Assembly: GCA_017416145.1 (NCBI GenBank)
Contig: JAFQDD010000020.1
Location: 1 to 64,000, forward strand
DNA: 64,000 bases
Direction of reading: 5' to 3'
Source: Spirochaetaceae bacterium
GTDB taxonomy: Bacteria > Spirochaetota > Spirochaetia > Treponematales > Treponemataceae
The first letter of the stretch is position 1. Every line of letters begins with the position of its first letter. The notes under the pieces are model-generated. The model had not been told where the DNA came from. It made no database searches and was given only the letters and a program-made list of their open reading frames with translations. The position numbers were made by a program, and so were the translations under genes. Of this stretch, positions 3,872-57,238 are shown in pieces.

Positions 3872-5097
3872 ATTCGGCGACCGCCTACGTCTTCAACTGT
3901 GAAGGAGCTTGTGCCAAATTTTAATTTTTCGCCGTTTTCTGGAAGATAGCCAAATTTTTCTAGAAGCCAACCTCCAAGGCTGTCAAAATCCTCGGATTCA
4001 AAATCTGTGTTGAATATCCGATTTACATCATTTAACGACATATCTCCAGGAATAAGGAATTCTCGTTTTCCTGTGATACGGATTCTTTCTTCTGGAGCAA
4101 CAGTTTTTGAGTTGTATTCGTCGGTTATACGTCCAAAAACTGCTTTTAGTACGTCGTCTGTGGTAACAATTCCTTCTACATTGCCGTGTTCTCCAACAAC
4201 AACTGCGAAAGTGTGTTTTTCTGTTCTAAATCGCATTAACAATGTAACAACAGAAACTGTTTCTGGTATAAACAATGCTTTTCGCACAATTTTTTCTGGA
4301 GCAAAGGTGGATTTATCCCCAGTAAAATATAAGACATCTTTGTAGTGAATTGTGCCTATAATTGCTTCTAAATCATCTTTGAAAACTGGAAGTCTTGAAT
4401 ATCCGCTTTCTATGAATTTTGAAAGAGTTTCTTCGTAAGTTGCTTTTCCATTAATTGATTTTACAAAAGAACGGTGTCGCAAAATATCTCTGACCCGCAA
4501 ATCTGTAAATTCAAAGATTTTGAAAAGCATTTCCTTTTCCCCAGATTCCAAAGTACCTTCTTCGTCTCCCACATCAATAAGAGTTTTTAACTCTTCTTCT
4601 GTAACGGAAGGAAGTGGATTTTTTTGGAATAAACCTACAAATTTGGAAACAGCTTTTGTAAAAACGGTAAAAGTTACGATAATTGGCTTTAACAAAACTT
4701 TTAACCAAGTTAGGGGCTTTGCAAAAAGCAAACTCAATTTTTCTGGAGAAGAGGCTGCAAAGGTTTTTGGCAAAATTTCTCCAAAAATAATGATTACAAC
4801 GGTCATTATTCCTGTAGCAATTCCCACACTTTTTTGACCGAATAAGCTAAGGACAATGGAAGTTGCAAGGGATGAGGAAAAAGTATTTACAAAGTTGTTA
4901 CCAACCAAAATCAAAGTTAATAAACTATCTGTATTTTGTTTTAATTTTGCAACTGGAGCAGCAGCTTTTTTGTTTTCTTTAAGCATTTGTCGCATTTTGA
5001 TTTTGGACAGGCTTAAAAAGGCCGTTTCGCTAGAAGAAAAGAAAGCTGACATAGCAACTAGAAAAATAAGGGTGATTATGGAAATGGTTATGTTCAT
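3841..5097 (-). CDS. CorC/HlyC (CNNM, TlyC-like) membrane protein with CBS pair, copy 1
   Basis: An inner-membrane protein of the DUF21-CBS-CorC family, whose members are linked to Mg2+ or cobalt efflux and were first named hemolysins. The 418 residues give an N-terminal DUF21 membrane region (about 1-170, with SSSETAFLSLSK near residue 20), two CBS repeats (about 195-320, GTIHYKDVLY and GIVTTDDVL) and a C-terminal CorC_HlyC domain ending in VGGRRIQSIRMRYEK. It is second in an operon: its ATG overlaps the TGA of the upstream paralogue by 4 bp, so translation is coupled. Haemolytic activity is a historic label, not something the sequence shows. Confidence 0.85.
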   Translation of the reverse strand: MNITISIITLIFLVAMSAFFSSSETAFLSLSKIKMRQMLKENKKAAAPVAKLKQNTDSLLTLILVGNNFVNTFSSSLATSIVLSLFGQKSVGIATGIMTVVIIIFGEILPKTFAASSPEKLSLLFAKPLTWLKVLLKPIIVTFTVFTKAVSKFVGLFQKNPLPSVTEEELKTLIDVGDEEGTLESGEKEMLFKIFEFTDLRVRDILRHRSFVKSINGKATYEETLSKFIESGYSRLPVFKDDLEAIIGTIHYKDVLYFTGDKSTFAPEKIVRKALFIPETVSVVTLLMRFRTEKHTFAVVVGEHGNVEGIVTTDDVLKAVFGRITDEYNSKTVAPEERIRITGKREFLIPGDMSLNDVNRIFNTDFESEDFDSLGGWLLEKFGYLPENGEKLKFGTSSFTVEDVGGRRIQSIRMRYEK

Positions 5098-10300: not shown

Positions 10301-11327
10301 ATGGCTCAATTTCTGTTGGGTGATTGTGAGTTTCGTTTTTAAACTGTAAAAGCCAACGCTCTGTTTTTGTTTCGCCCTTGTTGATAACGTCTGTAACATC
10401 TACATCAATGTAAATAGAACAAGCGTTGATTTCGGCTGAAAGTTCAATATCATCAAGTTTGCCAATTTTTTTAAGATATTTTGCACCAATACAAGCCATA
10501 TCCATAAGAGTTGTAGGTTTTTCACCGTTTTCAGCTCTTTCTGCATAAAGCTCTTTTCTAAGTTCTTTGTATTCTTCCAAAGAACATAAAATAGGTTCTG
10601 TTAATTCTGATTTTTCAATTTCAATATCATCTAAAACTGTGTTAAAAGTTGTGTGACGACAGTGATCTGACCAATATGTGTCTAAAACACGGATTTCTGT
10701 TTCAGAAGGATCTCTACCCTCTTTTTTGAAATAATCTTGCAAGAAAAGAATATCTGCCATATCCATTGCAAGACCCATTTTATCTCGAAGGTCAGCAAGT
10801 TCTGATTCTGAAAGTTTTGTAAATCCTTCAAAAACTGGAATATCACCTGGAAGTTCCATAGTCATTTTTAGAGTTTCTGGGATTTCTAGACTTGCAAGAC
10901 GAGAATCAACTGGATTTATAAGATAATTTTTGATTTTTTCGATTTCGGCAGCAGAAATTTCTCCAGAAAGGATAACCATTTTTGCACAACGTACATTAGA
11001 AGGTTTTCCACCTGTTAAAAGAGATAAACATTGTTCTGCTGAATCTGAACGTTGGTCGTATTGCCCTGGAAGATATTCCCAAGCAATTACTGTATCATTT
11101 TCATTTAGCGGAATGTGATCAAAGTAGCAAATATCACTTTGTGGTTCAGAGAAAATGCGGCAAGAAGCTGCTTTTATTGTTTCTTCTGAAACATTTTCAA
11201 TATCATAACGATTTAAATAACGTAAACCAGTTATGCCATCAACACCGAGGAAGCCTTTTATTTCACCGAAGATTCGGTTTACTTCATTCTCGAAACCATT
11301 TTTTCTTTCAATATAAAGACGAAACAT
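7353..11327 (-). CDS. purL: Phosphoribosylformylglycinamidine synthase, single-chain
   Basis: Catalyses the glutamine-dependent conversion of FGAR to FGAM, step four of purine synthesis. At 1324 residues it is the fused large form. The N-terminal linker region is followed by the two AIRS-like ATP-binding halves (SDHCRHTTFNT near residue 220, then FKNETHNHPTEIEPFGGAATCIGG) and a C-terminal class I glutaminase domain beginning LLPVFPGTNCEFD, with the nucleophile in GICNGFQ (about Cys1155) and a His/Glu pair in ISHGEGR. Its presence implies a purine pathway that T. pallidum lacks, fitting a free-growing gut or oral relative. No clear ribosome site precedes ATG 11327, and the 45-bp gap to the upstream gene suggests cotranscription. 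No purine riboswitch is visible. Confidence 0.95.
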   Translation of the reverse strand: MFRLYIERKNGFENEVNRIFGEIKGFLGVDGITGLRYLNRYDIENVSEETIKAASCRIFSEPQSDICYFDHIPLNENDTVIAWEYLPGQYDQRSDSAEQCLSLLTGGKPSNVRCAKMVILSGEISAAEIEKIKNYLINPVDSRLASLEIPETLKMTMELPGDIPVFEGFTKLSESELADLRDKMGLAMDMADILFLQDYFKKEGRDPSETEIRVLDTYWSDHCRHTTFNTVLDDIEIEKSELTEPILCSLEEYKELRKELYAERAENGEKPTTLMDMACIGAKYLKKIGKLDDIELSAEINACSIYIDVDVTDVINKGETKTERWLLQFKNETHNHPTEIEPFGGAATCIGGAIRDPLSGRAWVYQALRVTGASDPTVPLSKTRDGKLPQMKLTREAAQGFSSYGNQIGLTTGQVAEIYHPGFEAKRMELGAVIAAVPAEVVKREEPEAGDCVVLVGGGTGRDGIGGATGSSKAHTVKSVTTAAAEVQKGNAVEERKIQRLFRNRDVCRMIRRCNDFGAGGVSVAVGELAPGLDINLDAVPKKYEGLNGTELAISESQERMALVVREKDVDAIIKAANDENLNATVIAKVTDTNRLVMKWRGKTIVDIDRNFLDTAGASRNASAKIISPKKVESPLASPLASVVEILNQDCGCNGGTENKPGEKLSKAWLTNLSDLAVCSQRGLSERFDGSIGSATINFPMGGRYQATPESGCTAKIPVLPPYETETSSLMTFGYDPRVAQWSPYHGSQAAVLQSLARIASLGGKPDSCRLTFQEYFERTSSKEAWGKPTAALLGALSAQKAMGTASIGGKDSMSGTFQDLNVPPTLVSFAVATEKAKNVNSGAFKNANSKVYFVPTQYNKDLTPDFADFNNNANALYELNKAEKLDAIYSVGAGGIAEAVSKMAFGNKIGFTFDADFYKKLKEAYPEQASILADQGKTCTSWLLFLPLYGALIAEVSSENAADFEKALGAKAIFLGTTTEERKISVKKSVIDLEEALAKWENTLSVVFPPIAKDADKKTEKLPEFATAEHQSLVDARKNIPNVVASKAKPKVLLPVFPGTNCEFDMARAFALSGADTKILVFRNNTPQALEESLQALQAELSTAQILALSGGFSAGDEPDGSAKFICNVLRESRIADGVMNLVDNKKGLVLGICNGFQALIKVGLLPYGKILSPSEEMPTLTYNCINRHISRVVRTRMVSATSPWANDPTILEAKTHLVPISHGEGRIIISDELAKDLFAKGQVYTQYVTEEGVPVMSEPDNPNGSMFAIEGITSLDGRILGKMGHSERTIGALANGKSDSLLKNISGDNCQNLFAAGVRYFN

Positions 11328-53967: not shown

Positions 53968-54678
53968 ATGATTCGAGTTGTTTTATTTGATTTTGATGGT
54001 GTAATTATTGATTCAAGTAAGGATATTGCAGCCGCAGTAAACAAAACATTTTCTCATTTTGGATATGGGGAACTTTCAGAAACTGAAATCATAAAGCACG
54101 TTGGGCACGGTGCTGAACATCTTCTTGCATGTTGTTTAAATGATATTTGCATTAAAAATCACAAATCCTTTAATCCAGAAGTTTTGCCAGAAATCAAAAA
54201 ATGGTACATAGATTATTATAATTCCCACGCTGTTGTAGATACAGAAATTTATCCTGGAGTTATGGAACTTTTGTATCAACTTAGCCTAGAGGATATTCGT
54301 ATGGGAATTGTTTCCAATAAGCCAATCAAAGTTACAGAAACCATTTTGGAACATTTTGATATTATTGATTATTTTGATGTAATGGTTGGACCAGAGTTGA
54401 TAAAAGAAATAAAACCTGCTCCAGATGGCATAAAACTTGCTGTAGATACCATAAATAAATGGATAACTGCCATTGGAGAATCTGAAATTACTCCAAATCA
54501 GGTTTTGATGGTGGGAGATTCTGGGGTGGATGTAAAAGCTGCAAAAAACTTTGGAGCATTTAGTTGTGGAGTTTTGGGTGGAATTGGCAATCCAGAAGGT
54601 GTAAGAGCAGAAAACCCAACTTTTTTGGTAAATACGTTAGCAGAATTTTCAATGGATGATATTAAGCGAATCTTTTAG
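53968..54678 (+). CDS. HAD-superfamily phosphatase (phosphoglycolate phosphatase-like)
   Basis: A 236-residue hydrolase with all HAD motifs: DFDGVIIDS (Asp7, Asp9), SNKP after GIVSN, a Lys in EIKPAP, and GDSGVDVKAA. The helical cap after residue 15 matches subfamily I, like phosphoglycolate phosphatase or beta-phosphoglucomutase. Its final 30 codons are repeated at 56247-56333 beside pyrF, where they end at an ATGA overlap with the pyrF start; the present 3' end therefore appears to have been replaced when the intervening islet entered. GGAGAG lies 9 bp before ATG 53968. Confidence 0.88.
   Translation: MIRVVLFDFDGVIIDSSKDIAAAVNKTFSHFGYGELSETEIIKHVGHGAEHLLACCLNDICIKNHKSFNPEVLPEIKKWYIDYYNSHAVVDTEIYPGVMELLYQLSLEDIRMGIVSNKPIKVTETILEHFDIIDYFDVMVGPELIKEIKPAPDGIKLAVDTINKWITAIGESEITPNQVLMVGDSGVDVKAAKNFGAFSCGVLGGIGNPEGVRAENPTFLVNTLAEFSMDDIKRIF
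54589..54626 (+). repeat. Left 38-bp direct repeat bounding the lipoprotein islet (attL-like)
   Basis: This segment of the HAD gene's 3' region is identical over 38 bp to 56247-56284. Past the identity the two copies still encode related but different C-termini: LVNTLAEFSMDDIKRIF here and LVKTMTELKISDILKL there. That is the signature of an insertion that replaces the end of a gene with its own version. Confidence 0.75.
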
Positions 54679-54794
54679 TTTGTATTTGCAGAAAATAGTT
54701 CTGGGAGAGTGTCGTTTATGTAAACATTTGCAACACTACAATATTTTCCACGGCCTTCTCTTTCTATCAGATGTTCACAACAAAAAGCTTTCAT
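54675..54794 (-). CDS. Candidate 39-residue Cys/His protein
   Basis: An open frame from ATG 54794 to TAA 54675 encodes 39 residues beginning MKAFCCEHLIEREGRGKYCS. Cys5, Cys6, His8 and Cys19 could bind a metal. Its stop overlaps the HAD stop on the other strand. No good ribosome site is seen, and AT-rich sequence precedes it, so it may be a small real gene, a leftover of the islet, or chance. Confidence 0.3.
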   Translation of the reverse strand: MKAFCCEHLIEREGRGKYCSVANVYINDTLPELFSANTN

Positions 54795-54840
54795 TATAAT
54801 TATAAAAAAAAGAAAAATAATTATACTTTTTTTAGCACTC

Positions 54841-55311
54841 CTACAATATTAGTTGTAATTCGTATGTAAATATAGCTGATAGACGAGAACCATTTTCTGA
54901 AAATAATTCAAATGGAATTTGTTCTAATTTGTTGTCATTTGTTTTTAGTTTATTTAAATAGACCTCACCATTATATATTTTGCCGTCTATATCAACAACA
55001 AAAGAGAGAGTTATATTTGTATGGTCATCAATTCTGTTATCTGCAGGAACATAAAAAACGCTACATATATTTCTATTGATGATATTATTTTTTTCTAAAT
55101 ATTGTAATTTTTCCTTGTCAATTACATGCATACACTCGGTAAAATCTGAAATTTCTAGCTTTTCTGATTTACAATAAACTTTAACATCACTATCTTCCAA
55201 GTTATTAAGTACTAAATAAGTGGTAAAAATATTTTTTATGCACATAAATTCACATCCCAAAAACAAAAAGGGAAACAATAATAACATTGCAAATAAGTAA
55301 CTTTTTTTCAT
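54841..55311 (-). CDS. Islet lipoprotein 1, unrecognised
   Basis: A 156-residue lipoprotein (lipobox FLGC, lipidated Cys20). The mature part has beta-sandwich character: TTYLVLNNLEDSDVKVYCKSEKLEISD, NITLSFVVDIDGKIYNGEVYL and SRLSAIFTYELQLIL. It is about 40% identical by eye to the 160-residue protein of the neighbouring gene, and the DNA of the two signal peptides is nearly identical, so this is a recent partial duplication. It lies 4 bp after a broken small gene. Last gene of the minus-strand islet operon; function unknown. Confidence 0.7.
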   Translation of the reverse strand: MKKSYLFAMLLLFPFLFLGCEFMCIKNIFTTYLVLNNLEDSDVKVYCKSEKLEISDFTECMHVIDKEKLQYLEKNNIINRNICSVFYVPADNRIDDHTNITLSFVVDIDGKIYNGEVYLNKLKTNDNKLEQIPFELFSENGSRLSAIFTYELQLIL

Positions 55312-55314
55312 TTT

Positions 55315-55508
55315 TTAGATCTCCATAATTAATTTGAATAGTGAATCATCAACAACATTTACTTCGACATTTTCATATAGTTCGATTATTGTTTCAACAT
55401 AAGTCAGCAGGATTTCCTAGGGGGAATTCTTCAATCACAACAGCATTTCCTGCAGAAACAATTAGATAAAACAATTAATATAGCAATTATGAAATACTTA
55501 TTTTTCAT
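55315..55508 (-). pseudogene. Broken small exported-protein gene, copy 1
   Basis: ATG 55508 has AAGGAG upstream and begins MKNKYFIIAILIVLSNC, a signal or lipoprotein peptide, but the frame stops after 25 codons. One base later a second frame continues as VSAGNAVVIEEFPLGNPADL, and after a 5-bp deletion relative to copy 2 a third continues as VETIIELYENVEVNVVDD to a TAA at 55315. Joined, these give a protein of about 65 residues. It starts one base after the stop of islet lipoprotein 2. Confidence 0.55.
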
Positions 55509-55509
55509 A

Positions 55510-55992
55510 TTAAATACTCCTTGAAAAAATGTAAGTAAAGATTGATGATACAGAATCACCACTTTTATTTTTTAATATAACAGGTTCAGTAAACAAAGAA
55601 ACTCGACTTCCATCTTCTCTTAAACTTTTAATATATAATTCAGCAGTATATTCTTGTCCATCTATTTCAGCTTTAAAAAAAACTGTAACATTGTTTCGAT
55701 CATATATTTGTAAATCAGAGGGAATCGAAAACAACTTAAAATGATCATTGTCATAATGTAATTGATTTTCTATAGCCCAAGAAAGCCAGGTTTCATCTAA
55801 AATTTCTTCACAATTTTCTAATGATGCTATCCCTATTTTTTCTGATTTGCAGTAAAGTTTTATGTTAGAATCATTAGGATTATCTATCACCAAAAATGTG
55901 TTTTCAAGCGACATAACACCAAAATTTCCATCACATCCCAAAAACAAAAAGGAAAACAATAATAACATTGCAAATAAGTAACTTTTTTTCAT
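55510..55992 (-). CDS. Islet lipoprotein 2, unrecognised
   Basis: A 160-residue paralogue of islet lipoprotein 1 with the same signal peptide (lipobox FLGC, Cys20) and matching segments (TFLVIDNPNDSNIKLYCKSEKIGIAS, NVTVFFKAEIDGQEYTAELYIKSL, SVSSIFTYIF). The mature regions have diverged while signal peptides and the upstream 110 bp are almost identical, which suggests duplication followed by change in the exposed part. First intact gene of the islet operon behind the promoter at 56173-56201. Confidence 0.7.
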   Translation of the reverse strand: MKKSYLFAMLLLFSFLFLGCDGNFGVMSLENTFLVIDNPNDSNIKLYCKSEKIGIASLENCEEILDETWLSWAIENQLHYDNDHFKLFSIPSDLQIYDRNNVTVFFKAEIDGQEYTAELYIKSLREDGSRVSLFTEPVILKNKSGDSVSSIFTYIFSRSI

Positions 55993-55995
55993 TTC

Positions 55996-56105
55996 TTAGA
56001 TCTCCATAATTAATTTGGAATAGTGAATCATCAACAACATTTACTTCGACATTTTCATATAGTTCGATTATTGTTTCAACAGAACTTAAGTCAGCAGGAT
56101 TTCCT
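55996..56105 (-). pseudogene. Truncated copy 2 of the small exported-protein gene
   Basis: Repeats the last 37 codons of copy 1 (GNPADLSSVETIIELYENVEV), including the six bases missing there, but carries one extra G (in 56021-56022) that shifts the frame before the shared stop at 55996. The 5' half with the signal peptide is absent, and an in-frame stop lies just upstream. Confidence 0.6.
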
Positions 56106-56172
56106 ATTTACATCTAAAGATAATTTAGAAGCCTCACTTCTAATTCGAGAATGTTTTTTTTGATAATGTAAA

Positions 56173-56201
56173 ATTGTAAAGATAATGTTATTTTTTGTCA
56201 A
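56173..56201 (-). promoter_or_regulatory. Promoter of the islet lipoprotein operon
   Basis: On the minus strand TTGACA (56196-56201), 17-bp spacer, TACAAT (56173-56178). Predicted start near 56166. The leader can form a hairpin (TTAGAAG / CTTCTAA, about 56127-56145). Confidence 0.65.
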
Positions 56202-56246
56202 CATAATTATATATTTTGTCATTTTGAAATATTAAAAATTTTTGGA

Positions 56247-56284
56247 AATCCAGAAGGTGTAAGAGCAGAAAACCCAACTTTTTT
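56247..56284 (+). repeat. Right 38-bp direct repeat bounding the islet (attR-like)
   Basis: Identical to 54589-54626. The preceding bases TTGG also match with one mismatch. It sits at the pyrF-proximal edge of the islet. Confidence 0.75.
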
Positions 56285-56333
56285 AGTAAAAACGATGACC
56301 GAATTAAAGATTTCTGATATACTCAAATTATGA
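56247..56333 (+). pseudogene. Orphan 3' end of a HAD phosphatase gene, overlapping pyrF
   Basis: In frame, this segment encodes NPEGVRAENPTFLVKTM followed by TELKISDILKL and a TGA whose first base lies inside the pyrF ATG (ATGA). It is the end of a HAD gene without its body, most simply the original C-terminus of the gene now at 53968-54678, cut off by the islet. The original gene was thus translationally coupled to pyrF. Confidence 0.7.
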
Positions 56334-57238
56334 GTAGAAACACTGCAATGAGTCGGCTTCAGGACGCATGCCGTAAAAATGGTCCACTTTGTATTGGTTT
56401 GGACACAGATCCATCTTATCTTCCAGAATCTGTAATTGCTAAATATCCTTCAAAGGAAGAGGCTGTTTTGGCATATAACAAGGGAATTGTTGACGCTGCC
56501 TCACAATACGCAGGTTGTTATAAAGTTCAAATTGCTTATTACGAAGCAATGGGCTTAAAGGGAATGGAAGTTTTTGCCAAAACAGTTCAGTATATTCGCT
56601 CAAAAAACATTCCAGTAATTTCTGATGTTAAGCGTGGTGATATTGCAGATACAGCCAAAGCTTATGCAAAAGCTCACTTCCAAGGTGATTTTGAAACTGA
56701 TATTATCACAATCAATCCATATATGGGATTTGACACTCTAGAACCTTTTATGAGCTTTTTTCCAGAAAAAGGTGCATTTGTGCTTTTACGCACTTCAAAT
56801 CCTGGTATGCAAGACATTGAAAATCAACTACTTTCTAATGGAAAACCTGTTCTAAGCCTAGTTGGTGACAAACTTAACCAACTTGCAGAAGAATATGCTT
56901 CTTCAAATCCTGGGGAATGTTCTCCTTTTGGTGCTGTTGTTGGTTGCACAGAAGAAGAAGACGCTCGAAAAATCCGTGATATGTATCCAAATGTTTTCTT
57001 TTTGATTCCAGGCTTCGGCGCCCAGGGCGGAAAAGCTAGAATTGCGGCAACACTTTTAGACAAAGCTGGTGGTGCTGTAAACTCTTCTCGCGGTATCTTA
57101 ACTGCTTGGAAAAAAGACGAAGACCTTGCCGCAAAACGTGACGCTGGAACTCTTACAATGGAAGACATTGTTGCTTCAGCCACAAAAGCCGCAAAAGAAT
57201 CCACAGAAGTTCTACTAGAAGCCAAAAACAGTCTATAA
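56330..57238 (+). CDS. pyrF: Orotidine 5'-phosphate decarboxylase, long (type 2) form
   Basis: Converts OMP to UMP in the last step of pyrimidine synthesis. The 302-residue protein is the long actinobacterial/clostridial-type form: PLCIGLDTDPSYLP near the N-terminus, YKVQIAYYEAMG, ISDVKRGDIADTAKAYA (the catalytic Lys-Asp array, about residues 95-105), TINPYMGFDTLEPF, VVGCTEEEDARKIR and FLIPGFGAQGG. It is 11 bp upstream of the pyrKD fusion. Its former upstream partner, the HAD gene, is now separated by the islet, and no convincing new promoter is seen before ATG 56330. Confidence 0.93.
   Translation: MSRNTAMSRLQDACRKNGPLCIGLDTDPSYLPESVIAKYPSKEEAVLAYNKGIVDAASQYAGCYKVQIAYYEAMGLKGMEVFAKTVQYIRSKNIPVISDVKRGDIADTAKAYAKAHFQGDFETDIITINPYMGFDTLEPFMSFFPEKGAFVLLRTSNPGMQDIENQLLSNGKPVLSLVGDKLNQLAEEYASSNPGECSPFGAVVGCTEEEDARKIRDMYPNVFFLIPGFGAQGGKARIAATLLDKAGGAVNSSRGILTAWKKDEDLAAKRDAGTLTMEDIVASATKAAKESTEVLLEAKNSL

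Follow-up and report, generated by a model that had tools for sequence, protein, structure and literature searches.

The prophages e14 and phage 21 integrate in the 3' end of icd and supply a substitute gene end. Many genomic islands that carry an integrase restore the gene they enter (PMC12884075), and in a study of conjugation in E. coli, single-crossover partial duplications (109-950 bp) dominated (PMC3240628). Here we compare with these systems a small islet between a HAD-family hydrolase gene (HAD) and pyrF, located in the window, by which we mean the whole 64-kb stretch of DNA that was analysed. By homology, the islet is an eroded remnant of a lipoprotein operon that is found at scattered places in related bacteria.

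The duplicated HAD end and the pyrF junction

The insert between HAD and pyrF measures about 1.6 kb (Table 1) and is enclosed by a direct repeat, with 54589-54626 identical to 56247-56284 in 38 of 38 positions. Including its edges, each of which contributes one mismatch that is synonymous in the HAD frame, the block comprises 44 bp (54584-54627 vs 56242-56285, 42/44 identical). Only three families of direct repeats of at least 28 nt occur in the 64 kb, one containing the HAD block and the remaining two being the A-end/B-start repeats within the islet. When a 26-base segment of the 38-bp core was searched for in the 2.9-Mb genome, allowing up to three mismatches, no further copy was found; together, these results exclude a chance origin of the repeat. 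The core had no match in viral contigs. No tRNA that could have served as insertion target lies within the window. The ends of the islet are devoid of inverted arms, the nearest pair (70%, AT-rich) lying well inside it, and no transposase was found among the ORFs tested, so that neither hallmark of a transposon or IS element, terminal inverted repeats or a transposase, was seen.

The interrupted HAD gene is restored, its ORF being complete. Beyond the block, the two HAD tails are clearly homologous on alignment: the tail proteins VNTLAEFSMDDIKRI and VKTMTELKISDILKL reach a BLOSUM62 score of 29, against a background maximum of 15 over 3077 reading positions of the islet. They are nevertheless far more diverged than the block (26/48 vs 42/44 identical positions, Fisher 3.7e-6), which points to a chimeric locus rather than to a drifting duplicate: two distinct alleles of one C-terminus appear to have been joined via the near-identical block. 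The two homologous HAD ends that flank the islet could also be explained if HAD had been partially duplicated in tandem, most of the second copy had subsequently been lost and the lipoprotein genes had been inserted independently, but a near-identical block followed by such a tail is unlike the uniform drift of a duplicate. Moreover, tandem or intermediate HAD copies were found neither in the genome itself nor next to pyrF in the relatives examined, and we regard this course of events as extremely improbable. Relatives of HAD in named genomes reach at most 42% identity, with no same-species strain among them.

In g20 genomes, which represent another Treponemataceae genus, HAD and pyrF are uninterrupted and 16 nt apart, and the islet is therefore most simply an insertion interrupting the HAD-pyrF junction. 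The relatives compared are distant ones, the pyrF of genus-mates being only 63-68% identical to that of the window's species. A gene pair (13495-15273/11373-13490) that precedes HAD or pyrF in several relatives (L118, L038, L039) lies 40 kb off in the window; the block has therefore undergone rearrangement. The TATACT that is the probable -10 element of pyrF falls inside the distal HAD tail, a feature that the preliminary description had not included. At 26 of 30 Treponemataceae loci, a TANNNT hexamer is located 5-7 nt, usually 6 nt, before the pyrF ATG; this spacing suggests that the pyrF mRNA is leaderless, and a literature search returned no description of leaderless pyrF in Treponema.

Table 1. 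Features of the HAD-pyrF locus, with positions in the window
Feature	Position	Strand	Basis or remark
HAD-family hydrolase gene, intact, 236 aa, substitute 3' end	53968-54678	+	HAD_2, E=2.9e-37 over 1-178/178
Proximal copy of duplicated HAD segment	54584-54627	+	38 bp perfect at 54589-54626
Proximal HAD C-terminal tail, diverged, VNTLAEFSMDDIKRIF*	54628-54678	+	Homologous to distal tail
Gene C remnant, lipase-like, ~53 N-terminal codons	54679-54840	-	49% identity/49 aa to C of G057, E=7e-9
B1 lipoprotein, 156 aa, intact, lipobox LFLGC	54841-55311	-	35% identity to B of G057, E=1e-29
Gene A 3' end, copy 1, frameshifted	55318-55462	-	70-74% identity to A residues 281-330, two frames, E=2e-14
Short signal-peptide-like start MKNKYFIIAILIVLSNCF, fused to A fragment	55431-55508	-	Position after B2, translation; weak
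B2 lipoprotein, 160 aa, intact	55510-55992	-	32% identity to B of G057, E=9e-24
Gene A remnant, copy 2, A 155-169 joined to A 293-326	56012-56150	-	62% identity, E=2e-12; 60%/15 aa, E=0.011
Promoter-like TTGACA-17-TACAAT	56201-56173	-	11/12 consensus; reads towards B2 and B1
Distal copy of duplicated HAD segment	56242-56285	+	Sequence comparison, 42/44
Distal HAD tail, VKTMTELKISDILKL*	56286-56332	+	Stop overlaps pyrF start (ATGA)
Probable pyrF -10 element TATACT	56318-56323	+	6 nt before ATG; spacing conserved in relatives
pyrF, orotidine 5'-phosphate decarboxylase	56330-57238	+	PF00215, E=4e-26

Islet genes and the related lipoprotein operon

On the minus strand, the islet consists of internal and 3' pieces of gene A, B2, a short signal-peptide-like start, a frameshifted 3' piece of A, B1 and the start of gene C, which is cut off at the HAD stop codon. 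Judged by its position alone, the start MKNKYFIIAILIVLSNCF is probably that of a second copy of C. No second copy of the islet, of the A-B-C genes or of the B lipoprotein exists in the genome, the B lipoprotein was absent from viral contigs, and genes D and E had no match in the islet region, being either deleted or never present there.

B1 and B2 are 38% identical. Their A-end/B-start units (55250-55419 and 55931-56106) are 97-98% identical. The B bodies that follow these units share 30% amino-acid identity (41/135 codons), and the sharp boundary between conserved and variable parts, just past the B signal peptide, suggests recombination between B alleles. Differences at the three codon positions (72/52/80) are near saturation and fit weak constraint. 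Since the B genes are intact and preceded by a good promoter match, while the rest of the islet is wrecked, they may have been kept by selection. The predicted structure of B2 (pLDDT 80) yielded only weak matches (TM values of 0.4 or less), among which C2 domains of SHIP phosphatases ranked first, and we therefore claim no function for B2.

In a profile search with the two islet lipoproteins, full-length relatives were obtained only from genomes G057 and G058, where the B gene is part of an operon A-B-C-D-E, encoding a 330-aa lipoprotein (A), a small lipoprotein (B), a lipase-like protein with a GHSQGG motif (C), and D and E (metalloprotease-like); fuller islands have a size of ~6 kb. The A, B and C homologues of the window lie in operon order on one strand. 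Matches to A-B-C were present in 21 of 274 genomes of the family, in differing neighbourhoods. A gene resembling a membrane-HTH regulator is located close to the operon in G146, G254, G109, G244 and G107 according to sequence matches, and at some other loci ORFs that resemble it in size alone adjoin A; we therefore assign a regulator beside A to some genomes and do not treat it as universal. Searches of Pfam and NCBIfam with A, B, C, D and E gave no match above curated cut-offs and no convincing family, a PDB sequence search with C gave no match, and no description of the lipoprotein island turned up in the literature. In G254 (L184:8968-9860), A and C are separated by two tandem B-like lipoproteins, in which diverged parts lie between blocks of 79-81 identical bases, resembling the B1/B2 mosaic of the window. 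In G101 (L191:5976-17887), ~7 kb of the island are tandemly duplicated, with an identical stretch of 2937 bp.

For the local sequence, the preliminary description proved largely accurate: the perfect repeat, the related but different C-termini after it, the ATGA overlap of the distal tail with pyrF, a strong promoter in the insert and the lack of an integrase among the islet ORFs were all recovered. Its minus-strand lipoprotein genes correspond to two intact lipoprotein ORFs, whereas what it had called lipoprotein fragments are mainly pieces of genes A and C. Its view of the islet as a remnant is borne out by the homology of A, B and C, and that of an insertion providing HAD with an alternative 3' end by the uninterrupted HAD-pyrF pairs in g20 genomes, where it had proposed to look for such loci among relatives. 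The two findings it had named as speaking against it, the same arrangement in all relatives or a tandem HAD duplication, were not made: no relative examined has this islet arrangement at HAD-pyrF, and no tandem duplication before pyrF was seen.

Islands between direct repeats

The island of G146 (L185:4714-10874) lies between direct copies of 82 bp (4632-4713 and 10875-10956; 80/82 identical) that are flush with the island and correspond to the ends of metF and an argA-like gene, which converge and overlap here. In the sister genome G134, the joined flanks were matched contiguously at ~98% identity, constituting an empty site, from which each of the G146 copies differs by one substitution. This demonstrates that an island homologous to the islet was inserted at metF with target duplication; both loci are inside contigs, although most genomes are draft assemblies, for which an assembly error is conceivable where reads are lacking. 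Among the six ORFs of the G146 island, no recombinase or integrase was recognised with Pfam and NCBIfam, which a novel recombinase type could escape. The HAD and metF targets are unrelated, and the orientation of the island relative to the target gene is opposite in the window and in G146, so that the two copies compared share neither a constant core nor an orientation.

These observations bear on the preliminary description's proposal that the repeats are attL and attR of a site-specific element. Under that proposal, an attP with a HAD-like end and an attB in HAD would have been recombined by an integrase that either was lost afterwards or acted in trans; the 38-bp block would be the att core, the proximal tail the replacement end brought by the element and the distal tail the original end. 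Such an event is expected to leave a perfect core, diverged sequence on its far side and a substitute end that is functional, and it would explain the diverged tails in one step; restoration of the entered gene is common among genomic islands (PMC12884075), and four tyrosine-recombinase genes reside elsewhere in the genome. However, the core is without a second copy in the genome. Two observations speak against an integrase encoded by the island itself: the G146 island yielded none that Pfam or NCBIfam recognised, and neither the target nor the orientation relative to it is shared by the window and G146. Given also the flush 82-bp copies and the empty site at metF, we consider the att interpretation unlikely.

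A second pair of sister genomes provides a view of later stages. The G206 island lies between 94-bp repeats (92.6% identical), and at the same site in G088 the repeats are kept (88%) and 1.8 kb are lost (L238), with A almost entirely and C to about two thirds removed; the G088 island has thus decayed between repeats that were retained. The G206 repeat contains a promoter-like sequence and may be a shared promoter/operator instead of a target copy. When 11 island loci were searched for flanking repeats, clearly significant ones were found only in G146 and G206; at the other nine, boundaries were taken from gene ends with 400-bp flanks, such that older or shifted copies could be missed. Duplication is thus either not the rule or has decayed.

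Origin of the HAD repeat and comparison with known systems

With a probability of roughly two thirds, we favour acquisition of the island with duplication of its target, followed by decay and by recombination between diverged HAD alleles. A lipoprotein island of ~6 kb would have entered the HAD-pyrF junction antiparallel to HAD, the HAD end being duplicated on entry. Since this end extends into the promoter and start of pyrF, its duplication on insertion should spare both genes, and insertions of this kind would be expected to persist. The ends of metF and of the argA-like gene overlap much as the HAD end and the pyrF start region do; we infer by analogy that the HAD repeat arose in the same way as the metF duplication, and that selection for intact neighbours explains duplicating insertions at such sites. 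D and E would later have been lost completely and A and C for the most part, with two intact B genes kept behind the strong promoter.

The metF copies are flush but the HAD tails have diverged, for which the HAD case would need an extra recombination step. The sharp break between near-perfect block and diverged tail suggests that the tails stem from diverged HAD alleles, and the chimera would most simply have formed by homologous recombination between lineages with a crossover in the shared block, requiring a donor with another HAD allele. The strand exchange could have been a single crossover of a circular molecule sharing a short segment, which would lead to the observed product, or an illegitimate event during DNA uptake. 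Alternatively, a donor fragment with HAD and the lipoprotein operon could have replaced the resident HAD by a homologous crossover on the left and an illegitimate join on the right, leaving a HAD stub before pyrF. Such an allelic replacement would directly account for the diverged tails, and homology-facilitated illegitimate recombination is documented together with single-crossover partial duplications (PMC3240628); yet it would take a coincidence for the 42/44 identity to end in a sharp break, unless the right junction had also used the block, and neither HAD nor pyrF lies beside the operon at the 18 island loci examined, making replacement very unlikely.

Extending the favoured reading, acquisition with target duplication, it is possible, if somewhat doubtful, that integrase-free lipoprotein islands of operon size are disseminated in the Treponemataceae through a generic mode of insertion, with duplication of 40-95 bp of target, that insertions into overlapping genes survive as the duplication spans the overlap, and that the islands subsequently decay while the copies on either side are retained. 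The empty site provides a worked case of an operon arriving between overlapping genes with neither of them broken and no recombinase visible, and the island loci display stages of decay. Direct repeats around a small islet are by themselves no proof of att sites. The comparison also reveals that relatives of Treponema possess a family of lipoprotein operons that lacks assignment in Pfam and NCBIfam and whose spread can be tested.

Like e14 and phage 21 at icd, the islet is associated with a substitute, diverged C-terminal coding end; unlike it, these prophages have their own integrase and a fixed target. With integrase-borne islands (PMC12884075), it shares direct repeats at both ends, a target gene that remains functional and entry at a gene 3' end, but its fuller homologue is without a recognised integrase, the targets are unrelated and the orientations opposite. 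As in the conjugation experiments (PMC3240628), part of the target is duplicated around an insert without a dedicated recombinase; those involved experimental plasmids and 109-950 bp, whereas here a natural, operon-sized island is accompanied by copies of 44-82 bp. Compared with the A-B-C-D-E operon of G057/G058, G146, G254 and other Treponemataceae, the window retains two B genes and fragments, without D, E and regulator, and its A, B and C are homologous and in the same order.
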